In this document: one piece after another, positions 15,621 through 59,857 of the stretch | Numbering within the stretch: the first letter of the stretch is position 1 | Layout: each line of letters opens with the position of its first letter | DNA from: an uncultured SAR86 cluster bacterium | Lineage (GTDB): Bacteria; Pseudomonadota; Gammaproteobacteria; Magnimaribacterales; AG-339-G14 | Assembly: GCA_902561325.1 (NCBI GenBank) | Contig: CACEOL010000002.1 | Span: 62,001-126,000 of the forward strand | Direction: 5' to 3' | DNA length: 64,000 nucleotides | Program-made: the position numbers and the translations under genes | Notes under the pieces: generated by a model | What the model was told of the DNA's origin: nothing | The model's database searches: none | What the model saw: only the letters and a program-made list of their open reading frames with translations

Positions 15621-15726
<106 letters not shown>

Positions 15727-17083: not shown

Positions 17084-18352
17084 ATGTTTTTTAAGTTATT
17101 AATTTTATTCATTTATTTTTTCTCATTAAATATCTATCTAGAAAATTTAGATGACACACCTTCACAAATCTTTGAAGAGACACAAACAGAAATATCTGAA
17201 GTCATCGAAGAGCCAAAGCCTGAAGATGCAGAAAATATAGAAGAGGTAGGGCTGGTTGACATTGAAGTCATCGAAGAGCCAAAGCCTGAAGTTGCAGAAA
17301 ATATAGAAGAGGTAGGGCTGGTTGACATTGAAGTCATCGAAGAGCCAAAGCCTGAAGTTGCAGAAAATATAGAAGAGGTAGGGCTGGTTGACATTGAAGT
17401 CATCGAAGAGCCAAAGCCTGAAGATGCAGAAAATATAGAAGAGGTAGGGCTGGTTGACATTGAAGTCATCGAAGAGCCAAAGCCTGAAGTTGCAGAAAAT
17501 ATAGAAGAGGTAGGGCTGGTTGACATTGAAGTCATCGAAGAGCCAAAGCCTGAAGCTGCAGAAAATATAGAAGAGGTGGAGTTAGACGAGGTTGAAAATT
17601 TTATTAAAGATGAAGATAGTCTTGCAAATAAAAGTTTAGATATTTTAATTAGAGAGTTACCTACAACCGTTGAGCAAGCAATAACAGATAGTTATCTTTT
17701 TATTTTATTCGTTTTACTTTTGTTTTTAATTTTAGCTTTAGCAGTTGTAATTTATATGTTGTATCTTCAGATTAAGTGGAGAAGGAGATACACAAATAGT
17801 GAGTCAGTTGTATTTAAAGATACCCATCTAGATTTCCTTGAACATCTAGAGAAGTGGATAAAAAAAACTACAGGGGTAATCAACGAAAATCAAAATGTTT
17901 CCATGAATTTTCAAAAGGAAACTTTAGAGTCTCTGCAAAAGATTACTTCATATATATCTGACCAATCTACAGAATTAGATAGATACAGGGAGGGTTATGA
18001 TTTCTCGATAAAGAAAAATGTTTTATTGTCATTGGTATCAATTTTTGAGACATTAAAAGCTGTTGATACTTCGGAAATAAAAGATCCAGATTTTTTAAAA
18101 AGGATTATAAGGTTTGTAGAAAGTCATTTAGAAAACCATGATGTTAAAGAATTTGTATTCGAACAGGGTCAATCTTTTAGGAACCTTCCAATAGATGAAT
18201 TTGAGATTTGTGACACAGAAATAATACAAGATAAAGATCTTGACGAATTAATCAATAAAACAGAAGAATGTGGATATTACTTTTTCTTTGAAGGCGGTAA
18301 ACGAGTTTTAAAAAAAGCAAGAATAATTGTTTATAGATTGGAGAAATCATAA
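17084..18352 (+). CDS. Membrane-anchored GrpE-like protein with acidic repeat stalk
   Basis: A 422-residue protein in four parts: an N-terminal hydrophobic segment (residues 1-18, signal or anchor); six tandem 22-residue acidic repeats (39-170, unit like VIEEPKPEVAENIEEVGLVD); a strong membrane span (204-228) followed by the basic KWRRRY; and a C-terminal region that I read as GrpE-like. That region has long helices (about 240-350) and a beta part ending GGKRVLKKARIIVY (404-417), comparable to the GrpE ending with GRxLRxAxVxV. The positive-inside rule puts the GrpE part in the cytoplasm and the repeats in the periplasm. Its stop overlaps the Hsp70 start (TAATG), which strongly supports a nucleotide-exchange role for that Hsp70. 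GrpE assignment is by pattern, not by search. Confidence 0.72.
   Translation: MFFKLLILFIYFFSLNIYLENLDDTPSQIFEETQTEISEVIEEPKPEDAENIEEVGLVDIEVIEEPKPEVAENIEEVGLVDIEVIEEPKPEVAENIEEVGLVDIEVIEEPKPEDAENIEEVGLVDIEVIEEPKPEVAENIEEVGLVDIEVIEEPKPEAAENIEEVELDEVENFIKDEDSLANKSLDILIRELPTTVEQAITDSYLFILFVLLLFLILALAVVIYMLYLQIKWRRRYTNSESVVFKDTHLDFLEHLEKWIKKTTGVINENQNVSMNFQKETLESLQKITSYISDQSTELDRYREGYDFSIKKNVLLSLVSIFETLKAVDTSEIKDPDFLKRIIRFVESHLENHDVKEFVFEQGQSFRNLPIDEFEICDTEIIQDKDLDELINKTEECGYYFFFEGGKRVLKKARIIVYRLEKS
17198..17593 (+). repeat. Six tandem 66-base in-frame repeats
   Basis: Each unit encodes 22 residues beginning EVIEEPKPE. The first five are identical except for one codon, GAT, GTT, GTT, GAT, GTT (Asp, Val, Val, Asp, Val); the sixth has GCT (Ala) and diverges over its last 20 bases. 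Near-identity at silent positions indicates recent expansion by slippage or unequal recombination. A change in copy number would keep the reading frame. Confidence 0.97.
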
Positions 18353-48444: not shown

Positions 48445-48612
48445 TTGTTAGTTTTAAGTCGAAGAAGAGATCAGACTCTTGTAATTGGCGATAATGTAGA
48501 AGTAACAGTATTAGAAATTAAAGGAGGCCAAGTCCGTTTAGGAATAAATGCTCCTAAAGCTGTTCCGGTTCACAGAGGAGAAATCCACGCTAAAGTAATT
48601 GAAGAGAGTTAA
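48445..48612 (+). CDS. csrA: Carbon storage regulator CsrA
   Basis: A 55-codon gene too short for a simple ORF list. The translation begins MLVLSRRRDQTLVIGDNVEV, matching the CsrA N-terminal RNA-binding strand, and continues with VRLGINAPKAVPVHRGEI, which contains the conserved VHR of the second RNA-binding surface. It starts with TTG at 48445 behind an AAGGGG SD. CsrA dimers bind GGA motifs in mRNA leaders to control carbon use and motility. Position between tRNA-Ser and tRNA-Arg is a gammaproteobacterial arrangement. Confidence 0.95.
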   Translation: MLVLSRRRDQTLVIGDNVEVTVLEIKGGQVRLGINAPKAVPVHRGEIHAKVIEES

Positions 48613-48617
48613 AAAAA

Positions 48618-48694
48618 GCGCCCGTAGCTCAGTTGGATAGAGCACCTGGCTACGAACTAGGGTGTCGGAGGTTCGAATCCTTCCGGGCGCGCCA
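48618..48694 (+). tRNA. tRNA-Arg(ACG)
   Basis: A 77-base tRNA with encoded CCA. The acceptor stem is GCGCCCG/CGGGCGC, the anticodon stem CCTGG/CTAGG encloses CTACGAA (anticodon ACG, read as ICG after deamination) and the T arm is GGAGG TTCGAAT CCTTC. It begins five bases after csrA and precedes the AT-rich glycan cluster. No second copy of its 3' end was found downstream. Confidence 0.97.
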
Positions 48695-48858
48695 AATTAT
48701 TTTTTAAATTTTTTTGAAGTTTAGTAATAAAAGTTAATTTTTAAAAAGTTTTTTAAAATTTACAGATATAGTTTACAAAAGAAAGAAGTTTTTATTTTTA
48801 TATCTATGACGATAAAATTCATCAATTACCTATAAAATATATTTCTTTAAAAAAATTA

Positions 48859-50760
48859 GTGTATCCAAATCAAACTTTTTCAATATTGAGCAATGAATTG
48901 TCTATTGAGGTTTTTTTCTCTCTTTTAAGATACTCAGGAAAGAAAAAGGTTTTTTTAGTAAATAGTTTTAATTTTAGAAATAGCAGGCCAAAAAAATTTA
49001 TAAAAAGAAAAAAAATATTTAAATTTTTTATATCCAATCTTGAGATAATTGAATTACCTCTTCTAAAAATTAAAATTTCAGATGAGGACATCTATAGAAA
49101 AACTAATAAGATATTATTAGATTATTTGGAATCAAAAGAATTTAATCAATATGTCAAAAAAATAAGTTCAAGACTAATATTAGAAAACTATAAAGAAGGA
49201 ATAGAAATTGCCTTTAAGAAGCTTTACCTAGAGGAGTTATTTTCTATAACTTTGTTTAATGAAATTCTATCTTCACAAGAAAAAGAATTATTAATAAATA
49301 GAATTTTTATAAGGAATATAAAATTACTATCATTCAAAGGAATAACAGCTTCAATAAATAAATCTAAACATAAAATTATTTCCAATATTTTAACTAAATC
49401 ATATGACTTTATTTTACTCTTGTTCTATTCGCTCTTCTCGCCTAGGTTTTTTAGAGAAATTTTTTTTAGAGGAATTAAATTTAAGACTACACAAATAAAA
49501 AAATTTAAAACTTCTTCTCAAGTAGTTTGGGGTTTAGAAAAATTAAGTAAAGATAGTATTAATAAAGAATTAAATGACTTTGAACTCTTCGATGAATCTT
49601 TGCTAGAGATAAAAGAAAATCTTTTTCTAATAGGCCATAAATTTGGAAGAACAAACAAACAGCAAAAAGCATTAGTTTCAAAATTAAAAAGTTTAGGTTT
49701 AAGCTCATTAGATGAATCAAAAATTGCTATTCCTATTAGATGTCTATTTAAAAGCTTTATTTTATTTGGTTTTATTAAAAGATTATTTAATTTATTAAAC
49801 CTAAAATTTAAAAATATAAAAATTTCTCTTTTTGAGATAAATGTTATTGATAAGATCAATTTATCCATTCTCGAAGAAAAGATACTATCTAGCTATGTAG
49901 AAATAGACATATCAATAAGTAAAAATGATTATTCATTTCATCACATCATTAAAACTATAAATCAAAATACACTTGGAAAAATAAATGTTGGAATTCAGCA
50001 TAGCGCTTTATCCAAACCTTCACATCATCCAAATCAAGCACACACATTTTTTGATTTTTATTTTACTATGGGTCCCTTTTTTAAAGAATTATGGGCACCA
50101 CACTGGAATAAAAATAAAAAAATTATAAGCGTTGGTTCACATAGAGGATACTTAATCGAGAAAGCAAAAACTGATAAGAATTTAAAGATAAAATTTAAAG
50201 AGTATTACCCAAATTTGAATATTGTGATGCTTATTTCTCCAATTGACGAATATATTTCTCCAGAATGGTTATTGAGGAAAAGTTATAAAAATTTTTGGAA
50301 AATTTGTGATCTTAATCCTAATATAAATATAATTTTAAGACCTCGAAGAACCGAAGCTGTTTCTGATTTTAGAAATATGTTTCCCATAATAAAAGAATAT
50401 GAAAAAAGAAATAAAATTTTCTTTGAAATAGATAATTTCTCTACTCATGAACTTATTGCTTTTGCTGACTTTTTTGTATCCGAAGAAGGCTCAGGAAGCA
50501 TAAGTGAATCTGCTTTTCAAGACCATATCAATCTATCTACCATTGTTATTAGAACACCAATATTAGATGATTTAAGATCATTTTCTTTTAAAAATATGGA
50601 TGATTTAAAAGAACATATAAAAATTGTTCTTGAAGGAAAATTTTCTAATTCAAATTACTTAAAATTAAAAGATAAGTTTAGCGTTGATACAAGCACAAGT
50701 ACCTGGACTAAAGTTGGATCGATTTTAAATGAGCATCTTTCTAATGAGAATCAACTTTAA
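48859..50760 (+). CDS. Glycosyltransferase-like surface-glycan protein
   Basis: A 633-residue protein, lysine-rich and very AT-rich. The N-terminal part (residues 1-330) is unrecognised. The C-terminal part resembles a GT-B/polysaccharide-synthesis fold, with VGIQHSALSKPSHHPNQAHT near 375 and SEEGSGSISESAF near 545 corresponding to the nucleotide-sugar side. The GTG at 48859 is the first canonical start, but the frame is open back to 48772 with protein-like codons and no ATG, GTG or TTG there. The true start may be non-canonical or the gene may be 5'-truncated near the tRNA. It overlaps the convergent amidase gene by 20 bases. Confidence 0.6.
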   Translation: MYPNQTFSILSNELSIEVFFSLLRYSGKKKVFLVNSFNFRNSRPKKFIKRKKIFKFFISNLEIIELPLLKIKISDEDIYRKTNKILLDYLESKEFNQYVKKISSRLILENYKEGIEIAFKKLYLEELFSITLFNEILSSQEKELLINRIFIRNIKLLSFKGITASINKSKHKIISNILTKSYDFILLLFYSLFSPRFFREIFFRGIKFKTTQIKKFKTSSQVVWGLEKLSKDSINKELNDFELFDESLLEIKENLFLIGHKFGRTNKQQKALVSKLKSLGLSSLDESKIAIPIRCLFKSFILFGFIKRLFNLLNLKFKNIKISLFEINVIDKINLSILEEKILSSYVEIDISISKNDYSFHHIIKTINQNTLGKINVGIQHSALSKPSHHPNQAHTFFDFYFTMGPFFKELWAPHWNKNKKIISVGSHRGYLIEKAKTDKNLKIKFKEYYPNLNIVMLISPIDEYISPEWLLRKSYKNFWKICDLNPNINIILRPRRTEAVSDFRNMFPIIKEYEKRNKIFFEIDNFSTHELIAFADFFVSEEGSGSISESAFQDHINLSTIVIRTPILDDLRSFSFKNMDDLKEHIKIVLEGKFSNSNYLKLKDKFSVDTSTSTWTKVGSILNEHLSNENQL

Positions 50761-52021
50761 TCTTTAATATAAGATCGCTGAAATTATTTTTTATAAATTC
50801 TAAAAGATTTTTATCAGTACTTTTTGAAGAAATAAAATTTAATGACATTGGCATTCCATTTGAAACTCTATTTATTGGGGCTGTTAAACATGGAACATGA
50901 AGATAAGTCCAAAATAATGAAAGATCATCAACTTCTTTATTTCCAATTTCTGGAGCAATTCCATGTACAGCAGGGGTTATTAATAAATCTATTTCTGAAG
51001 ATTTAAAGAAATCATCAAATGATTTAATGTAAAGCGGATGATTGTTAATTTCTTTTATGAAATCTTCTTTTGAATAATTTTGACCTGATTCAATAAATTC
51101 CATAAACTTTTCAGTAATTTTTCTTTTTTCTTTAAGTTCGTTTTTAAAATAATATTCAAGTGATTTTGTGTAAATAACATGATGTGATTTATGAATTGAC
51201 TTGAAATATTTAGGAGTTTTTATGGGTTTTACATTTAACCCTTTTAAAGAAATTTTTTCAATAAAGTCATAATAGGCTTCCATCATATGAGGACTAACCT
51301 CAACAATTGAATTCAGATCATTTTCTTCAAGATAACCAATATTAGTAAATGAAGAATATTTAGATAAAGAATTTTTAGGATAATTAGTTCCTATTAGGGC
51401 TGTAGATTCAAGAGTTTGTATAGCAATGTCTAGATCATTTAAAAAAAAGCCTACCGTATCGAAAGGATCGCAAGTTTTTAAAATTCCTGTTCTAGGCATC
51501 AATCCAAAAGATGGTTTAAAACCAAGTACACCACAATACGATGCCGGCCTTGATATTGAAGCTCCAGATTGAGTTGCTAAGGAAATATCCGATTCTCCCA
51601 AAAGCACGCTTACAGCGCTTCCAGACGATGATGTGCCTGTAATTCTTTTTTTATTTAATGGGTTAAGAGTAGTTGTATCTGAATGAACTGCAAATTCAGA
51701 AGTAACTGTCTTACCAATAAAATTATAGCCAGCATTTAAAATAGAAGTTATAACTCTTGCATTGTTTCCAGCTTTAAATCCTTTCCAAATTGGACTTCCC
51801 ATCTCTGTTGGAAATATATAAGTATTAAAAATATCTTTAACTGTAAAGGAGGGTGTTTCAGTTTCCGTAGATAGAGGATTATCTGAAGAGAAAAAATTAG
51901 ATGAAGTAATGTAAAACTGTTCTAGCTCATCTTTATTAGGAATATACGCCATATGTTTATACTTTTTATTAGAGGCTTTAATAGCATCTAATTTCTTTAG
52001 AGTTGCTTTTATGTTATTCAT
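50741..52021 (-). CDS. Amidase-signature family protein
   Basis: A 426-residue amidase. The signature stretch is GTSSSGSAVSVLLGESDISL, with the nucleophile in ATQSGASISRPAS and the catalytic lysine in KTVTSEFAVHS. I place the start at ATG 52021 (MNNIKATLKKLDAIKA); the frame from 52072 adds 17 residues unlike the family. Amidases of this type hydrolyse amides of many substrates. Its place in a sugar cluster suggests removal of an N-acyl or amide group from a glycan precursor, which is inference. Confidence 0.88.
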   Translation of the reverse strand: MNNIKATLKKLDAIKASNKKYKHMAYIPNKDELEQFYITSSNFFSSDNPLSTETETPSFTVKDIFNTYIFPTEMGSPIWKGFKAGNNARVITSILNAGYNFIGKTVTSEFAVHSDTTTLNPLNKKRITGTSSSGSAVSVLLGESDISLATQSGASISRPASYCGVLGFKPSFGLMPRTGILKTCDPFDTVGFFLNDLDIAIQTLESTALIGTNYPKNSLSKYSSFTNIGYLEENDLNSIVEVSPHMMEAYYDFIEKISLKGLNVKPIKTPKYFKSIHKSHHVIYTKSLEYYFKNELKEKRKITEKFMEFIESGQNYSKEDFIKEINNHPLYIKSFDDFFKSSEIDLLITPAVHGIAPEIGNKEVDDLSLFWTYLHVPCLTAPINRVSNGMPMSLNFISSKSTDKNLLEFIKNNFSDLILKIKVDSH

Positions 52022-52110
52022 TAATCTATATATCGTATAAGTTTCTTTTAAAAAAACACCAAGTATTATCAATCTAACTTCATCAGAAGAGTTTCATGTG
52101 GAAAAGATTT

Positions 52111-53136
52111 TTATTTTAATTTTTGAAATATAAATCCATTATATCCAGTTGATAGGTTTTTCTTTAAAAGCTCTTGAAGATTTTTTCTCAAAGCTTCATT
52201 CTTAAGTAAATGAGATAACCCAAATAAAGGATGGTCAACATCAAGTTTAGATGAGTATTCATAAACTATATCGACATCCATTTCACCAACTGAGAAAACA
52301 TCTATAAATTTAAAGCCATTTCTTTCAAATAAGCTTTTGATACCCTTGATAGATCCAATTTGCAATATAAAAAAAGGATTAATATTTTGAGCGTCTCCTC
52401 TGAGGAGTTCAATATCCATTCCTCCACTATGCATATCTACTAAAGAGATAATTCCTTCATTTTTAAGTAAATTCTTTGCTTTTTGAAAAAAAATATCTAG
52501 TGAATGTGGATGTTCTATTACGCTATTTAAGAAAAGTAGGTCTACTGTTTCATGGTAAGAAGTGGAAACTTCTTCAAGAGTACTACATATTACTTCTGTA
52601 TTATTAAGTTTTTTAAGAGATTCTTCACAAGCTTTTGCCGGCTCTATAGCTATATATTTACTAGCGGTATTTGTTGTTTGAAGAACTTGAATAAAGTGTC
52701 CAAGACCCGCACCAACTTCCATAATTGTATCTACAGGAGTTTTGATTCCGTTTGTCATTAATTTTTCTTGTAATAAATTCCACCTTGGTTTCATTATCTG
52801 TTCAATTCTCAGTTCTTTAACAGCTGGCAGCATTTCGCTATCAACTAGATCAGCAGGTTGTAATTTATAAAAATTATCTAGAGATTCTAATGTCGGCCTT
52901 GGAGAGTTATATACAGAATTACAATTAACACATCTTAAATAAATCATAGATTGTAATGAAAAATACATATTGGATTCCTTGCTTTGGCAGAAAGGGCAGT
53001 TAGATTCTTCAAGCTCGGGGTTCTTACTTAGATATTTAGTTACCAAGACAGATAAGCTTTCACTAATTTTTTCTCTATATTTGGATGGTTTTGAGATTTC
53101 ATACAAAGATTTTTTATTTTTTTTAAAACTATTCAT
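52111..53136 (-). CDS. Class I SAM methyltransferase with N-terminal zinc ribbon
   Basis: A 341-residue protein. The N-terminal ribbon has two CxxC pairs (CPFCQSKES and CVNCNSVYNSPRP) and the SAM-binding motif is MEVGAGLGHFIQVL near residue 139. This architecture is common in sugar C-methyltransferases and cluster-associated methyltransferases in glycan operons. Substrate unknown. Codon use is AT-rich like its neighbours. Confidence 0.85.
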   Translation of the reverse strand: MNSFKKNKKSLYEISKPSKYREKISESLSVLVTKYLSKNPELEESNCPFCQSKESNMYFSLQSMIYLRCVNCNSVYNSPRPTLESLDNFYKLQPADLVDSEMLPAVKELRIEQIMKPRWNLLQEKLMTNGIKTPVDTIMEVGAGLGHFIQVLQTTNTASKYIAIEPAKACEESLKKLNNTEVICSTLEEVSTSYHETVDLLFLNSVIEHPHSLDIFFQKAKNLLKNEGIISLVDMHSGGMDIELLRGDAQNINPFFILQIGSIKGIKSLFERNGFKFIDVFSVGEMDVDIVYEYSSKLDVDHPLFGLSHLLKNEALRKNLQELLKKNLSTGYNGFIFQKLK

Positions 53137-53194
53137 TATTTGTATAAATTTAAATATGATTTTATTTAAAGGTATTCTCAGGATAATTAATACA

Positions 53195-53902
53195 TTAAAT
53201 TTTCTTTTTATATTGTGCTTTTAATTTTTCATCAATTTTAATTATTTTTTTTTGGCTTATATATTTTCTATATATTGCAATATCTTCTCTCTGTATAGTT
53301 GCATTAGATATTATTGATTGATCTTTTTTAATTTTCATTAAAACTTTTTTAACAAATATAGATATTTCAGGATATATTGAAGCTCTAAAGGAATTGTAAG
53401 AATCTAAATCAACTTTAAGCGTTTTCTTTAGAATGATGTTCCCTGTATCAATTCCCTCATCAATTAAATGACATGTGCATACAACTTTATTACCTTCAAA
53501 AATTTGCCACTCAGGAGCGCTACATCCTCTATATCTAGGTAAATCACCTGGATGAAAATTTAAAATGCCTAGAGAAAAAAGTTGAATAATTTCATTTTTT
53601 AAAATTCCAGTTCCGCCCTGTATGCCTATTTCATATTTTTTTTTATTAAGAAAATTCTTTAAATCTTTAGATTTAAGGTTTTTAAAATTAAAAAAATTAA
53701 AATGTTTTTTAAGATAATCTTCTTTAGGAGGCTTCCATAAGTTACCGCATCTCTCTTCTTCGAGAGTATCTATTTCAGAAAAATTTCCAAAGGTAATTAC
53801 GTCAATATCTAAGTTTGTTAATTTAGATAGGTATTGCCTACCTGCATATGAATTCTTATTCATTAAAAGAGCAATTTTGGTATTTGCTTCCTTTGCTTTC
53901 AT
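53195..53902 (-). CDS. Formyltransferase-family protein (sugar N-formyltransferase-like)
   Basis: A 235-residue protein of the methionyl-tRNA formyltransferase fold. The catalytic Asn-His pair lies in LNFHPGDLPRYRG near residue 113 and the Asp in DEGIDTGNIIL near 145. It lacks the C-terminal tRNA-binding domain of Fmt (about 315 residues), so it is more likely a sugar-amine N-formyltransferase using 10-formyl-tetrahydrofolate. It neighbours an amidotransferase that could supply the amino group. Confidence 0.82.
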   Translation of the reverse strand: MKAKEANTKIALLMNKNSYAGRQYLSKLTNLDIDVITFGNFSEIDTLEEERCGNLWKPPKEDYLKKHFNFFNFKNLKSKDLKNFLNKKKYEIGIQGGTGILKNEIIQLFSLGILNFHPGDLPRYRGCSAPEWQIFEGNKVVCTCHLIDEGIDTGNIILKKTLKVDLDSYNSFRASIYPEISIFVKKVLMKIKKDQSIISNATIQREDIAIYRKYISQKKIIKIDEKLKAQYKKKI

Positions 53903-53917
53903 TTTTTTAATTGATAT

Positions 53918-55084
53918 TTATTCTTGAGATTGAATTTCATCAATAAATTCAAGAACAAATGGCTTTTTGTGAATATTATGTGTTACATTTTTGACAGGAA
54001 TTTGTTTATTTTTAATCGCTTCCTCTCTTTTACTTTTAATAATTTCATAAAATTCATCTTTATTCATTCCTGTTATTTCCAAATAGTATTCAAGTACCTG
54101 AGGTTCTATTTGGTCATATTTTTCTGCTAGGAGCATTGCATCAGATCTACTCAATAAACCAGTTCTAACATCTAAACTTGCATGAAAAGTTGCTCTACCA
54201 TAACCTCTTTTTAAATAGTTCGTAAAATCATGTAGTCCAGGCATAATACATTCAGCACTTTTATAACCTTTGTATGTTCCCTCAATTAAGTCTTCTTTCC
54301 AATTATATTTTTCTTTAATGAATTCAGTTTGTCTTTCTTCATCCCAAAACAAGAAGTCTCCTAGGTGAATACCCCAAACACCTGCTTTTTCACATTCTTC
54401 CTGAGAGGGAGGCTCAAAAAGCTTATATCTTCTTTTTTCATCTTCATTCTTAGCAAATTCTTCTGGAGATATTTTTGCTGAAACTTTTCTAAAATAATCC
54501 CTATCAAACTTTCTTATAGGATTAAAATAAGACGCTCTTCCAGAGGACTCAGCTATTGATTCTCCCCAAATCAAAAGAGGAATATTAAATTTTGTTGCCA
54601 CATGAAGAGAATAGGCTCCTATACCAGAATGGCAGTGCCAGCAAACATCACCTATTGCTTGAAGACTATTTTTTGCAGCGGTATTTACTGTTGACCTAGA
54701 AGGAGTGTACATCATATGGTCAACATCAAAGACCTCTATTGCATTCATGAGGTTATACCATCCAATCTTAGAGTACCAATTATGAGAGGCTGTCACTGCT
54801 AAAACTCTCATCTTGTAAACTTTAACCATAACATGCAATTGATACATACTATCTTTCCCACCACTAATAGGAACCATACAATCATAGGGAGAATTTTTTT
54901 TCTTAGCCTCAATTCTTGCTTTGTCTAATATTTCTGAAAGATCTTTAGATCTTTCTTCCCAAGATATATGCATCTTTTGTTCAGATGAATTGCAAGCTCT
55001 ACATATTCCTAATTCATCAAATTCAATTCCTTCAGTTGTTTCTGGCATACAACATCTATTGCAATATATAAGATCTTTAATCAA
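53918..55084 (-). CDS. N-acetyl sugar amidotransferase (WbpG/PseA-like)
   Basis: A 388-residue ATP-dependent amidotransferase of the TIGR03573-like family. It has the PP-loop ISGGKDSMYQLHV near residue 67, and CNRCCMPETTEGIEFD and CRAC supply an N-terminal zinc-ribbon cysteine set. Members introduce an amidino or acetamidino group on sugars of O-antigen or flagellar glycans. The stop-to-start spacing with the methylase is 3 bases. It suggests modification of a diamino- or nonulosonic-type sugar. Confidence 0.88.
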   Translation of the reverse strand: MIKDLIYCNRCCMPETTEGIEFDELGICRACNSSEQKMHISWEERSKDLSEILDKARIEAKKKNSPYDCMVPISGGKDSMYQLHVMVKVYKMRVLAVTASHNWYSKIGWYNLMNAIEVFDVDHMMYTPSRSTVNTAAKNSLQAIGDVCWHCHSGIGAYSLHVATKFNIPLLIWGESIAESSGRASYFNPIRKFDRDYFRKVSAKISPEEFAKNEDEKRRYKLFEPPSQEECEKAGVWGIHLGDFLFWDEERQTEFIKEKYNWKEDLIEGTYKGYKSAECIMPGLHDFTNYLKRGYGRATFHASLDVRTGLLSRSDAMLLAEKYDQIEPQVLEYYLEITGMNKDEFYEIIKSKREEAIKNKQIPVKNVTHNIHKKPFVLEFIDEIQSQE

Positions 55085-55087
55085 AAC

Positions 55088-55702
55088 TTACCTCTTAAAA
55101 AGCCACCAAGTAGTATCATCAAAACCTGCAGGATCATTAATGTATCCCCAATGAAAGCCATAATCTATCAGCTCGACATCAAAATTTTCTATGAATAATT
55201 TACCAAAATCTCTCTTAAATAATTTATCTTTTTCCCCTCTATATTCGATTGAAATAGGAGTTCTATTGAAGTACTCATTTATCAGTATGTATTTATTTGA
55301 GTATTCGTACATTTTTTCCATGTTCTTCAAAAGATTATCAGGATGAATATGGATTAAAACTTGAGTTGTAAATACTAAATCAAATGATTGTTTTTCAAAG
55401 TCTGAATCTATTATTGAACCAAGGAAATGTTGGTGTAAGTTATATTTTTTTAAGACATGATTATAAGCGGTATCGCTTATTTCTATAATAGACTTCTTTG
55501 CTTTTGGATTAAGGATTTCAAAGAAACCAAGATTTCTTCCTATATTAGATCCACACTCTAAAAAAGAGCTTATAGAATCTGCTTTAGAAAGCATTTTTTT
55601 CCAACATTTAACTCCCAAGTTTTGATCAAAAGTATTATTTCTTTCTTGATATTCAGCCTCATAAGTTTCAGTCCAAAACTTTTCTTGTTCGTTACGAGTC
55701 AT
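55088..55702 (-). CDS. Pseudaminic-acid-associated methyltransferase-like protein
   Basis: A 204-residue SAM methyltransferase. It starts with EQEKFWTETYEAEYQERNN, a pattern seen in the pseudaminic acid biosynthesis-associated methylase family, and the SAM site is FLECGSNIGRNLGFFE near residue 48. The typical DLVFTTQVLIHIHPDNL stretch follows. It probably methylates a sugar in the same pathway as the amidotransferase. The 145 bases before its start hold no gene. Confidence 0.85.
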   Translation of the reverse strand: MTRNEQEKFWTETYEAEYQERNNTFDQNLGVKCWKKMLSKADSISSFLECGSNIGRNLGFFEILNPKAKKSIIEISDTAYNHVLKKYNLHQHFLGSIIDSDFEKQSFDLVFTTQVLIHIHPDNLLKNMEKMYEYSNKYILINEYFNRTPISIEYRGEKDKLFKRDFGKLFIENFDVELIDYGFHWGYINDPAGFDDTTWWLFKR

Positions 55703-55847
55703 TTTCTTTTTGAAATCTTAAGTTTGTAGCAAATTCCGCTTAGTATACCCAAAAAAAAACTTTGATATAAATTTTTATAAAAAGTTAAAACGAAATATTT
55801 GAAATACACTTAATTTTAAAATCTGAAATAACAAAAAAATTGTTAAA

Positions 55848-56897
55848 TCAGGTTTCAAAAATAACTTCTATTTCTTTTAGGCCATTTAAATGCATTGGTA
55901 AAACAAATGCCCAATCAGAATTACCTTGTTTTAGAAAATCAATCAAAATAAAAATTCTTCGCAAAACTTCCTGAGATGCTGCAATTTTTAATTCATCTTT
56001 GGTTAAATTAAATTCTTCTAAAAAATCTAAAAATACAGTCGATTTAAAAAATTTATAAAAAATTTTTACATCTAAGCCATTTGCAACAGATTGTCTTATA
56101 AGTTTGTAAATCGCAAATCCTAAAGATCGACTTATTGAAGTTAAATGAATTGCTTCTAAATCAAGAAAATACATACCTTTTTCACCAACTGAAATATTGT
56201 GAGGATGAAGATCAATGTGCAGCGGCCTCAAACTATCAAAATTGTATAAAAGAGATTTTTCTTGAACAGATTTTATTTTCTTAAATAAAAAATTAGAATT
56301 TTTCTTAATAGTTATTTGATGTTTCTTTAAAGGGTTTGAGTCCCAATTTAAAGAAATAAATTTTTTTAATATTTCTACAGCATTCTTACTTAATAAAGGT
56401 TGCTTTATATAATTGGCTGTATTTATAGGAAAATTGTTAGCAAAATTTTTATAAATTTCAAAAAATGACTCAAATTCTCCTTTTTCTCCTAGGTAATGAC
56501 GATTTCCAACCTTTTCATAAAGTAAAAATACAGAAGTATTATATTTTGTGTATCCTTTTCCTTTAAAGTTTTCTATGAGTAAAGGCGCATTATAGAATTT
56601 ATTTTTTAAATTGTTATTTACCATTTCTAAATATTTTGCAGAATTTATTTTTTTAGAAGGATAAATTTTCATTACATAGTTACCTATTTTGGTTTTAATC
56701 AGAAGATTTGACGAATTAATTTTTCCTATACCTGAAACTTTAAGAGTTAATTCTTTATGATAAATATTTGGGTATGATTTTTTTAAAACTTCAGAAATTT
56801 CAGAATATAGCTTTGAATCTTTTTCTATATTTGTCCAGAGCATTCTATTATCTGAAAAAGAATCCTTTTTAAAAAGAGTTTTAGTTTCAGAACTCAT
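55848..56897 (-). CDS. APH/choline-kinase-like phosphotransferase
   Basis: A 349-residue kinase-fold protein. The catalytic loop is LHIDLHPHNISVG near residue 226 (Asp, Asn) and the metal-binding Asp is in YFLDLEAIHLT near 245. The N-terminal lysine is in YVMKIYPSKK. Unlike the kinase-like gene at 23163 it lies in a tight row with an SDR and an HD protein (shared ATG/stop base at 56897). It may phosphorylate a sugar or alcohol produced by the SDR. Confidence 0.75.
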   Translation of the reverse strand: MSSETKTLFKKDSFSDNRMLWTNIEKDSKLYSEISEVLKKSYPNIYHKELTLKVSGIGKINSSNLLIKTKIGNYVMKIYPSKKINSAKYLEMVNNNLKNKFYNAPLLIENFKGKGYTKYNTSVFLLYEKVGNRHYLGEKGEFESFFEIYKNFANNFPINTANYIKQPLLSKNAVEILKKFISLNWDSNPLKKHQITIKKNSNFLFKKIKSVQEKSLLYNFDSLRPLHIDLHPHNISVGEKGMYFLDLEAIHLTSISRSLGFAIYKLIRQSVANGLDVKIFYKFFKSTVFLDFLEEFNLTKDELKIAASQEVLRRIFILIDFLKQGNSDWAFVLPMHLNGLKEIEVIFET

Positions 56898-57682
56898 TAG
56901 AAGCTTTTCATTAAGCTTCCATCAAAGGCATGAACTCTTCCGGTAATATATCCTGCTTCTTCACAACATAGGTACTCAGCTAAACTCGCAATCTCTTCCG
57001 GTTTTGCAAAGCGTCCAATAGGTATGCCTGAAGCATTTTGTTCAAGAGCCTCTTGGTATGATTTTCCTATAGCTTCTGCTTGATCCTTTACTAATTGACT
57101 CAATCTATCTGTTTCAATACCCCCTGGACATATTGTATTTACAGATATCCCATTTGAACAAACGGTATCAGAAAGTGCTTTTGAAAATGCGGACACAGAA
57201 GCTCTTACAGAAGCAGAAATAATCATACTTGGGCTTGGTTCAACAGCAAGTGTAGAAGTAATATTTATTATTCTTCCCCATTTTTTTTTCATCATATGAT
57301 CGAGACAGTGTTTTGTAATGGATAAATGGCTTAAAAAATTATTTTGAATAGCATTTTTCCAATCAGCGTTTTCTAAGTTAAATATATCTCCAGCCTTAGG
57401 ACCACCTGAATTATTAATCAAAATATCAACTCCTATTTTTGAAGAACTTAATTCATTTATAAATTTTTTGACTTCATTAGATTTTGATAAATCAATCTTA
57501 TAAGAATCAATCATTTCAGGTTTTTTAAAAGATAACTTTGCATCATCAAGTTTTTTCTGGTTGTTTGAAAGCAAAATAATTTTAAGTTTTTTATGCTTTT
57601 CAAGTTCTTTAGCAATAGCTAACCCAATACCTGAGCTTCCACCACAAATTAAAGCTGTTTTATTAGATAATTTAAATTTCAT
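56897..57682 (-). CDS. Short-chain dehydrogenase/reductase
   Basis: A 261-residue NAD(P)-dependent reductase. It has the cofactor motif GGSSGIG near residue 14, LINNSGG near 90, the catalytic Ser in INITSTLAV near 138 and the shape of the FabG-like family. The usual YxxxK is replaced by a serine-containing SASVRASVSAF stretch, so the catalytic tyrosine is not where expected and activity is uncertain. An AAGGAG SD precedes the ATG. It overlaps the HD gene by 11 bases. Confidence 0.82.
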   Translation of the reverse strand: MKFKLSNKTALICGGSSGIGLAIAKELEKHKKLKIILLSNNQKKLDDAKLSFKKPEMIDSYKIDLSKSNEVKKFINELSSSKIGVDILINNSGGPKAGDIFNLENADWKNAIQNNFLSHLSITKHCLDHMMKKKWGRIINITSTLAVEPSPSMIISASVRASVSAFSKALSDTVCSNGISVNTICPGGIETDRLSQLVKDQAEAIGKSYQEALEQNASGIPIGRFAKPEEIASLAEYLCCEEAGYITGRVHAFDGSLMKSF

Positions 57683-58325
57683 GAGAATCTCCTTTTATTT
57701 CTTGCCTATTAAAACTAACTAAACAATTAATATTGTCGACTAATTTAGGAATGAAAGTGCTTGCAAGAGGAAGAACAAATTTTTCTATTTCATATAGATA
57801 AAGTAATTTTATTTTTTTGCTAGGATTATCAGATAATAAGTAGAGGTTATCCAATTTATCAAGTACCTTTATAATCGACATTTCTTTAGAGTTTGAGATT
57901 TTTCTATAATAATTGTCTTTATAACCCCAATCCCATTGTCTATTACGATCAACTGTCAATTTTTGAATCATATGATAAATAGGTTTCAGAGATATATGTA
58001 AATCATCTTTCTTATGTATTCCAGTTAATTCAACTAAATTATGAGCTAAAGCAAGTTTTAAAGTCTTCATACTAAAATTTTGACAATAAGAAATATAAAG
58101 ACGCGCTACTCTAATCGGATGAGCCATGTAGGCTAATTTATCTAATCCAGGATGTGAGTATTCAAAACTAAGAAGTAAGTTATAAAAATCATAAATTTTT
58201 TTTTGATCTTCTTTACTGCCTAATATTGAAAAGTCTTCAATTAACAAACTAAAATTTTTACTTGGGTTTTGTAAATCTTTGATTCTTCTAATTTTTTCTT
58301 TCTCAATAGTATCTAATATATACAT
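57672..58325 (-). CDS. HD-superfamily protein, RelA/SpoT-hydrolase-like
   Basis: A 217-residue helical protein. It has MAHPIRVARLYISY near residue 65, LALAHNLVELTG near 88 and VLDKLDNLYLL near 160, the order of an HD domain such as SpoT's. The HD dyad itself is HN (Asp to Asn), so hydrolase activity may be reduced or altered. It is the first gene of the HD-SDR-kinase row and probably carries their promoter in the 158-base gap before the P450. Confidence 0.72.
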   Translation of the reverse strand: MYILDTIEKEKIRRIKDLQNPSKNFSLLIEDFSILGSKEDQKKIYDFYNLLLSFEYSHPGLDKLAYMAHPIRVARLYISYCQNFSMKTLKLALAHNLVELTGIHKKDDLHISLKPIYHMIQKLTVDRNRQWDWGYKDNYYRKISNSKEMSIIKVLDKLDNLYLLSDNPSKKIKLLYLYEIEKFVLPLASTFIPKLVDNINCLVSFNRQEIKGDSHEI

Positions 58326-58483
58326 CTAATGTAATGAGTAAATTAATTGCTTAATTAGTATACAACTTAATAATGTTTACTTCGTACGTCTAAATTATTT
58401 TTAGATAAAATTTCAATATATTTATATAAAAAGATTAAGTTTAGAAGATGAGCCAATTAGATAAAAATTGAGTAAAATAAATT

Positions 58484-59857
58484 ATGTCTTTAAAACTAAA
58501 TAGTGATTCACAACCTTTTGTAGAAATAAATTCTCCTAAATATGAGGAAATTTATTCTTTTGACAGAGATTTTGATTTAACAGATCTTTTTTTATTTACA
58601 AAAGGTCAACCCTATCAAAAATTTGCAGAATTAAGAGAAAAAGCACCCGTATATTTTCACAAGACTGGACCAGAAGACACAGAACCAGGTTTTTGGGTTT
58701 TAACAAGGTATAAAGATATCGAATTTGTTTCAAAAAATCAGGATATTTTTTCTTCTCAACTTGCAGGAGGAACTTCTTTGACTCATGGCTTTACAGCTTT
58801 GGATGACTCGCCGCTTTATCGATCAACAATGGATCATATGTTGAGCTTGGATGGTTTATTACACTTGAATATGAGAAATCCTCACATGGTTTTTTTTAAT
58901 CCAAAATATGTAAGCTCCTTAAGAAAAAAAGTTGAATTACAGGTTGATAAGCTACTTGACGCCATAGCGCCAAGAGGAAGTTGTAATTTAGTTGAGTCTG
59001 TCTCTGCTGAATTACCTATGTTTACACTCTGTGAAATGTTAGGTGTGCCTGAAGCAGATAGACCTAAAATTATTGAATGGATGAAATTACTAGAAATGGC
59101 TCAAGTTATTGCTGCCACACAGGCTGCCCAAAATAATCAATTAAGTTTAACTGAAGAGCAGAGCGAAGGAGCTGCAGATCCTGCACTAATTGAGATGTTT
59201 ACTAATATGGTAGAAGAGATGTTTGCTTATGGTAGGCATATATTAGAAGAAAGAAGAAAATCTCCAAAAGATGATTTACTTTCAGTAATTGCAAACATTG
59301 AAATTGAAGGCGAAAAGCTTCCAAATGAATATTTAGATGGATCTTGGCTTCTAATAATATTTGCAGGAAACGATACTACGAGAAACTCTATCAGTGGCAC
59401 CATGAATTTACTTTCAGAGAATCAAGATCAAAAAGAATTGGTATTAAATGATCGGTCTTTAATTCCTAATATGGTTCATGAGTCTATTAGGGTAGCAAAC
59501 CCTGTTTCTTACATGAGAAGAACTACTAAGGTTGACACGCAGATTGGCGATCAAAAGATTGGCCCAAATGAAAAAATATCTTTATGGTATGGAGCAGCTA
59601 ACAGAGATCCCGAAATATTTAAGAATCCTGACAAGTATGACATTAGAAGAGAAAATGCAAAAAAACATTTATCTTTTGGTTACGGAAGACATCTCTGTCT
59701 AGGCAAACATACTGCTAATATGCAACTTGAAGTAGTTTATGAAAAGATTTTTGAAAGATTTCCGGACATGACACAGTCAGGGGATATAGTTTACACGCCC
59801 AATAATTTTGTAAATGCAATCCAGGAGCTGCCTGTATCTTTTTCTCCTAAAAAATAA
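58484..59857 (+). CDS. Cytochrome P450
   Basis: A 457-residue monooxygenase. The haem-binding loop SFGYGRHLCLG gives the thiolate ligand Cys405. The I-helix oxygen-activation motif is FAGNDTTR near residue 293, and the ExxR is in HESIR near residue 333. No membrane anchor is present, so it is a soluble bacterial type like CYP107/CYP125-family enzymes and needs ferredoxin partners not seen here. Substrate unknown; a steroid, terpenoid or alkane is plausible. Confidence 0.95.
   Translation: MSLKLNSDSQPFVEINSPKYEEIYSFDRDFDLTDLFLFTKGQPYQKFAELREKAPVYFHKTGPEDTEPGFWVLTRYKDIEFVSKNQDIFSSQLAGGTSLTHGFTALDDSPLYRSTMDHMLSLDGLLHLNMRNPHMVFFNPKYVSSLRKKVELQVDKLLDAIAPRGSCNLVESVSAELPMFTLCEMLGVPEADRPKIIEWMKLLEMAQVIAATQAAQNNQLSLTEEQSEGAADPALIEMFTNMVEEMFAYGRHILEERRKSPKDDLLSVIANIEIEGEKLPNEYLDGSWLLIIFAGNDTTRNSISGTMNLLSENQDQKELVLNDRSLIPNMVHESIRVANPVSYMRRTTKVDTQIGDQKIGPNEKISLWYGAANRDPEIFKNPDKYDIRRENAKKHLSFGYGRHLCLGKHTANMQLEVVYEKIFERFPDMTQSGDIVYTPNNFVNAIQELPVSFSPKK

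Follow-up and report, generated by a model that had tools for sequence, protein, structure and literature searches.

The window described here is a stretch of 64,000 nucleotides of an uncultured SAR86 cluster bacterium (contig CACEOL010000002.1 of GenBank assembly GCA_902561325.1, positions 62,001 to 126,000 of the forward strand); the source genome (G000) is a 1.17 Mb assembly in 25 contigs and is 87% complete. Immediately 3' of the end of a tRNA-Arg(acg) gene lies an insert of about 9.76 kb with nine open reading frames (ORFs), namely a 633-aa ORF on the plus strand and eight on the minus strand that point toward it (Table 1). Two of the eight encode an N-acetyl sugar amidotransferase (NASAT) and an amidase-signature enzyme. 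The nine ORFs next to tRNA-Arg are as given in the original prediction, which was made from the sequence alone and merely listed the amidase; this gene appears to be the informative one of the island, standing in for HisH and HisF, the genes found beside most other NASATs.

The junctions of the insert were aligned with the same site in the genus. Of the 15 congeners compared, 11 have an empty site in which csrA, tRNA-Arg and the cytochrome P450 gene are directly adjacent; the remaining four (G007, G008, G010 and G013) are untestable, the locus being broken or without a clear ortholog. In the empty sites 29-30 bases separate the tRNA 3' end from the P450 start (G014, one of the 11, has the junction at a contig end and retains the P450 start only). 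An acyltransferase gene is present in 11 of the 15 congeners, at 337-342 bp from the P450 gene in 11 of the 15, and the space between them holds a CsrA-type protein (11/11; tblastn, 76-100% identity) and tRNA-Arg (11/11). At the right edge of the insert the P450 leader reappears, with 28 bases from GCCA (58452-58455) to the P450 start; this GCCA may be what is left of a copy of the tRNA end, although four bases alone prove nothing. Almost all members of the genus share the genes on either side of the cluster: the P450 match is 88-94% identical in 12 of the 15 congeners (two cut by contig ends), and G014 adds the first 61 residues. GC content is 27.2% across 48695-58441 and 32.7% in the remaining window, where values for 156 overlapping segments of equal length lie between 31.1% and 34.3%.

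The cluster is a real genomic island, horizontally acquired, with its junction at a tRNA 3' end and empty sites in relatives. The original prediction had described it as AT-rich and as a possible second island, with conservation in all relatives as the sign of a core cluster; the composition and the empty sites agree with this, and a core cluster of the genus is ruled out. The 16 bases at the tRNA 3' end do not recur within the window, with up to three mismatches allowed, in agreement with the predicted lack of a tRNA-Arg duplicate. Family-profile scans of the nine ORFs detected no integrase family, no replication or packaging gene was recognized among the island proteins, and no clear flanking repeat was seen. 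A classical island with integrase and direct repeats is accordingly unsupported, as neither element was found.

Usual NASATs are presumed to receive ammonia from the glutaminase HisH via its channel partner HisF. The island NASAT exceeds the curated cut-off of TIGR03573, contains the PP-loop SGGKDS and a tetracysteine motif, and is the sole NASAT detected in the (87% complete) assembly. According to the accessible part of a structural study (PMC10607449), the motifs of the family are SGGXDS and CXXC-Xn-[GN]XCXXC, the reaction is the ligation of ammonia to an N-acetyl group, and the fold is related to that of sulfur transferases; the paper names neither HisH nor HisF. In the accessible part of PMC11340318, a table has WbuX, 'AlgZ/HisF2 family acetamidino modification system' and HisH genes with tags that follow one another.

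Five NASAT loci of the same clade came from a genome scan; these are L054-L058, of SAR86, Raymondbacteria, Holosporales, Cyanobium and a deltaproteobacterial bin. Among 398 Pseudomonadota genomes one more clade member (G045) was found besides many other NASATs, and IMG/VR contigs contributed nine clade loci and seven others. Phage records gave no match to the NASAT; 18 plasmid records matched it, all below 60% identity and most annotated as NASAT. Regarding the 14 clade loci scanned for motifs (without L122 and L124), the PP-loop is present in all and the tetracysteine in 13, the exception being L123, which is N-terminally truncated.

The neighbors of NASAT are exchanged between clades, amidase for HisH/HisF. 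Among the seven cellular clade loci, six have the amidase and none has HisH. The amidase gene directly follows NASAT in four of L054-L058; the fifth, L058, is the seventh cellular locus and stops at a contig edge; a clade amidase is present in that genome, its start cut off by another contig end. (Note that the window's amidase lies outside the 4.2-kb locus L001 and was counted from the ORF list.) The other cellular NASAT loci (n = 30) have no amidase, and 24 of them have HisH with HisF. Regarding the nine clade loci on viral contigs, seven have the amidase and none has HisH or HisF; L124 ends, and L125 has no amidase. The seven other viral-contig loci have no amidase, HisF in all and HisH in one; the HisH profile finds only this one of the seven, and HisH may be undercounted there. 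Four further short loci (G341, G038 and the congeners G010 and G013) show amidase in 0/4, HisH in 4/4 and HisF in 2/4 (both congeners). HisH is absent from all 16 clade loci, which represent 14 independent ones (L120/L123 and L121/L122 are identical rows in both trees described below); several viral loci are short, and absence there is weak evidence. No HisH or HisF family was found among the nine island proteins. The HisH and HisF profiles were grown from two proteins of locus L050 within the ORF set of the analysis. The 27 stretches taken from the 398-genome search include 30 of the 32 places with a NASAT outside G000; the count of 30 loci leaves out G341 and G038 (partial matches) and G010 and G013 (short loci).

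HisF occurs in the clade only as a degenerate 117-aa fragment in L057. This fragment (L057 12133-12486; G606:C63:12097-12522) has two stops, lies downstream of the Cyanobium NASAT-amidase pair, and may be what remains of the older donor. The NASAT and amidase ORFs overlap by 1-50 bases in eight of the 11 distinct loci with both, window counted (lengths are upper bounds, as ORF starts were set at the first start codon). Gene order varies while the pair stays linked: the amidase comes first in L121, and the two are apart in the window and in L089.

Within the genus, seven of 16 genomes (the window's included) contain a NASAT. All six NASAT-bearing congeners have HisH and HisF near it, and their NASATs, where fully aligned, are 28-32% identical to that of the island. 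In the congener G011 (L050, 9452-11841), HisH and HisF accompany two NASAT genes that lie side by side, and the genus has gained both sugar-amidine kinds. Two loci outside the clade, L092 (604-3021) and L094 (5044-7125), contain single long frames with HisF-like and NASAT matches, possibly natural fusions.

HisF was also counted genome-wide, and an extra copy at the NASAT locus was recovered in all seven positive-control genomes. The WbuZ model TIGR03572 cannot separate WbuZ from HisF (0/14 genomes above cut-off, positive controls included); copies were therefore judged by position. G000, G045 and G604 have one HisF only, beside a HisA-like gene (in G000 on contig C1), and G606 has one full HisF plus the fragment at L057. 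G513 and G605 lack HisF altogether, core copy included, and are little informative.

In a NASAT tree of 55 rows, all 13 amidase-linked rows together with L058 and L125 form one clade (support 100/99). The tree left out L116 (the same as L054), hits below 100 bits and pieces below 230 aa; L124 and the second L110 NASAT drop out by these limits. The window row was labeled amidase-linked by hand, as L001 stops short of the amidase. The change between amidase and His neighbors maps to one step with unlabeled rows set aside and to three if these are counted against it. In the amidase tree (without L116, L118, L136 and L140) the clade amidases form one group (100/100), separate from 20 others, namely 18 of the best from the 398-genome search and two from G602. 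The two highest-scoring amidases of those 398 genomes belong to the two that carry a NASAT of the clade; next comes an amidase of G374 (328 bits), which the tree places among the other amidases and which is flanked by two transporter-like genes.

Amidase-signature enzymes act on many substrates. The island amidase belongs to this family by its PF01425 score and its Lys-cisSer-Ser triad (K79, S148 and S172). Its solved relatives are varied, the nearest being malonamidase E2 (profile 6.5e-67; fold E 4.6e-21, from a model with pLDDT 69 and pTM 0.77). K79, S148, S172 and R175 align with K62, S131, S155 and R158 of malonamidase, the positions that carry mutations in PDB entries of that enzyme, according to the entry titles. 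In 13 clade amidases all four are conserved as far as the sequences reach (L118 lacks the last two and L135 the first); as six non-clade amidases compared keep them too, they indicate activity rather than a special donor role. The GatA equivalog model gives 147.9 bits, below its cut-off of 481.1.

Regarding the other ORFs, the functions named in the original prediction hold for two methyltransferases, the formyltransferase and the short-chain dehydrogenase/reductase (SDR), as for the NASAT and the amidase; 'kinase' and 'HD' correspond to weak matches only. The HD-like protein also matches a PHROG of unknown function (E 0.00056). The formyltransferase-fold protein is perhaps a sugar N-formyltransferase: its distant relatives include PseJ (PDB 6ci4, E 4.5e-6), one of 49 matches, among which several purine or methionyl-tRNA formyltransferases score better. 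For the 633-aa protein, profile scans gave no family, the other 202 genomes of the order gave no relative (E 1e-8), and the single-sequence fold was useless (pLDDT 37.5). No relatives of the 633-aa, kinase and HD proteins were found in viral contigs or plasmids; SDR relatives in phage records are generic FabG-like proteins. Elsewhere in the window, 17084-18352 encodes a protein with several tandem copies of a 22-residue EEPKPE-type repeat, beside a DnaK-like gene and downstream of tRNA-Ala (15621-15696).

Table 1. Features of the island and its borders, with positions in the 64,000-nucleotide window (the csrA end is the start plus 55 codons and a stop)
Feature	Position	Strand	Evidence
csrA, about 55 codons, left neighbor	48445..48612	+	55-aa frame; name from reading the sequence; tblastn in 11/11 empty sites
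tRNA-Arg(acg), anchor	48618..48694	+	ARAGORN; alignment with 11 empty sites
Inserted segment, about 9.76 kb	48695..58455		Junction alignments, GC; right edge set at GCCA 58452-58455
633-aa protein, GTG start, no family match	48859..50760	+	Convergent to the other eight ORFs
Amidase-signature enzyme	50741..52072	-	PF01425 161.2 bits (cut-off 27)
SAM-dependent methyltransferase, N-terminal CxxC/CxxC region	52111..53136	-	PF13489, PF08241; cysteines read from sequence
Formyltransferase-fold protein	53195..53902	-	PF00551 56.6 bits
NASAT, WbuX/PseA family	53918..55084	-	TIGR03573 312.6 bits (cut-off 203.2); motifs
Pseudaminic-acid-associated methylase	55088..55702	-	TIGR03587 161.3 bits (cut-off 112.05); 3 bp upstream of NASAT
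Phosphotransferase-like kinase (weak)	55848..56897	-	Thiamine kinase model E 0.0043
SDR	56897..57682	-	PF00106 137 bits
HD/MESH1-like protein (weak)	57672..58325	-	PDB MESH1 E 0.25; HN read where HD expected
Cytochrome P450, right border	58484..59857	+	PF00067 86 bits; congener matches

N-methylated acetimidoyl groups occur on the legionaminic acid of Legionella and are a possible precedent for an amidine combined with a methyl group. Two of the island enzymes, the NASAT and the TIGR03587 methylase, suggest nonulosonic acids. A complete sugar pathway within the island was considered and rejected: family scans detected no NeuB-type synthase or CMP transferase among its proteins, and both NeuB matches of the assembly lie on contig C6. 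The same contig carries PseF (300.6 bits, cut-off 205.7), a PseG-like gene slightly below its cut-off (149.8 bits, 153.55), a PseC-like aminotransferase (238, cut-off 423.5) and a second formyltransferase. The earlier suggestion of a modified nonulosonic-type sugar thus gains indirect support from TIGR03573 and TIGR03587 in the island and the NeuB/PseF/PseG-like locus elsewhere, while the part by which the gene set alone would make the sugar does not stand. The island is likely a tailoring cassette that modifies a sugar made from contig C6.

In the mechanism proposed, a nonulosonic acid would be made by the C6 locus, and the island NASAT would use ATP to convert an N-acetyl group into an acetamidino group. 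The amidase would free ammonia from a small amide for the NASAT, as GatA feeds GatB, in a clade that has lost HisH and HisF from its loci. The formyltransferase and the methyltransferases probably vary the same sugar by formyl and methyl additions. The ammonia-donor role of the amidase, a NASAT-amidase complex, the small amide used and the sugar that is modified are each what we infer. The proposed donor swap, as one evolutionary event, is well supported by the comparison of loci. Replacement of the donor is the best explanation because the clade has lost both HisH and HisF and gained a hydrolase of an amide-cleaving family. We regard the whole account, an acquired tailoring cassette whose NASAT is fed ammonia by a dedicated amidase, as reasonably probable. 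With slightly less assurance, and little above an even chance, we propose that an amidase-signature enzyme has taken the place of HisH-HisF in supplying ammonia to a sugar-amidine synthetase, which would be the second such case besides GatCAB, and that the arrangement spread between phyla and onto viral contigs.

Several observations weigh against this account. The swap maps to a single branch and is one event, not replicated. The window amidase lies two genes from the NASAT, and that of L089 is 2.1 kb away. NASATs without a visible donor gene do occur: L125 has no amidase on the whole 30.7-kb record and no HisH or HisF in the 13.1 kb read, and six of the 30 ordinary loci lack HisH/HisF, near contig ends in L097, L100 and L115 but not in L103, L105 and L107. 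The four aligned residues are kept in 6/6 non-clade amidases compared as well, G602 has additional HisF-like copies on other contigs, and the G000 assembly is 87% complete. Some of this would suit a rival explanation that we hold to be rather unlikely, namely that the amidase acts on the sugar, by removal or exchange of an N-acyl or amidine group, and that NASAT uses free ammonia or HisH/HisF of the histidine pathway. The breadth of amidase-signature substrates, the varied solved relatives, the single HisF that the genome retains beside a HisA-like gene, and the loci without donor genes (L125 and the six of 30) are all in its favor. It predicts neither the restriction of the clade amidase to loci where HisH/HisF are missing nor a swap in one clade, and the nearest solved relative, malonamidase, is named for a small amide.

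It is more doubtful still that the ATP-dependent reaction of the NASAT clade is a different one, with some other nucleotide sugar or a non-sugar acyl amide as substrate, and that the amidase is part of that pathway. The low identity between congener and island NASATs and the relationship of the fold to sulfur transferases (in the accessible part of PMC10607449) would allow for this, whereas the gene content of the clade loci argues for nonulosonic acids: NeuB-family genes occur in L054, L057 and L058 (two), DegT-type aminotransferases in L054, L055 and L057, and the window NASAT has a TIGR03587-type methylase as its neighbor, with a homologue broken into two frames beside the L057 NASAT and another in the L058 locus. 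Regarding the origin of the cluster, ancestry in the genus with later loss from the relatives has nothing in its favor beyond logical possibility and is very improbable. It conflicts with the identical compact junction in all 11 testable congeners, with the lower GC of the island, and with the rarity of its genes, as the clade NASAT is present in only two of 203 genomes of the order, and the kinase and the 633-aa protein in one each (E 1e-8), that of the window.

The reading of an acquired cassette with an amidase-fed NASAT can be set beside known systems. PseA of Campylobacter is a further member of the WbuX-type acetamidino systems. The WbuX-HisH-HisF2 systems (WbpG of P. aeruginosa O5, WbuX of E. 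coli O145) share with the island a NASAT with PP-loop and tetracysteine and the same presumed conversion of N-acetyl to acetamidino; they differ in that the island has an amidase-signature gene in place of HisH and HisF. GatCAB would be alike in that an amidase-signature subunit hydrolyzes an amide and passes ammonia to an ATP-using partner, but the island partner is a PP-loop enzyme rather than GatB, and the GatA score is far below the equivalog cut-off. To our knowledge, GatCAB is the only prior ATP-dependent amidotransferase in which the amidase-signature fold is the ammonia-producing subunit. Malonamidase E2 of Bradyrhizobium japonicum is nearest by profile and fold, with the triad and Arg158 positions kept, yet only about 24% identical in structural alignment, and we know of no role for it with a sugar amidotransferase. 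In the open-licence literature nothing was found that pairs an N-acetyl sugar amidotransferase with an amidase, and a prior description elsewhere is possible; among the partial records returned there for acetamidino or legionaminic with amidase, no title concerned such a pairing. Tycheposons of marine bacteria are tRNA-anchored genomic islands, and the present island resembles them in its variable cargo at a tRNA 3' end of a small marine genome, but differs by the lack of any recognized integrase, replication or packaging gene and of a clear flanking repeat.

On the IMG/VR contigs L124 and L125, the clade NASAT lies near sugar genes and phage-like genes (head-tail in L124, HNH and terminase in L125), and from this gene content phages may carry such sugar clusters. 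A Campylobacter phage protein binds pseudaminic acid modified with acetamidino groups, so that these groups of bacterial surface sugars can be recognized by phages (PMC4690887, accessible part). The nitrogen supply of NASATs seems little studied, and the clean swap of a presumed donor subunit provides a two-gene set with which the question of the nitrogen source becomes directly testable. For the uncultured ocean lineage itself, it means that surface chemistry can be altered via one small block gained at a tRNA gene.

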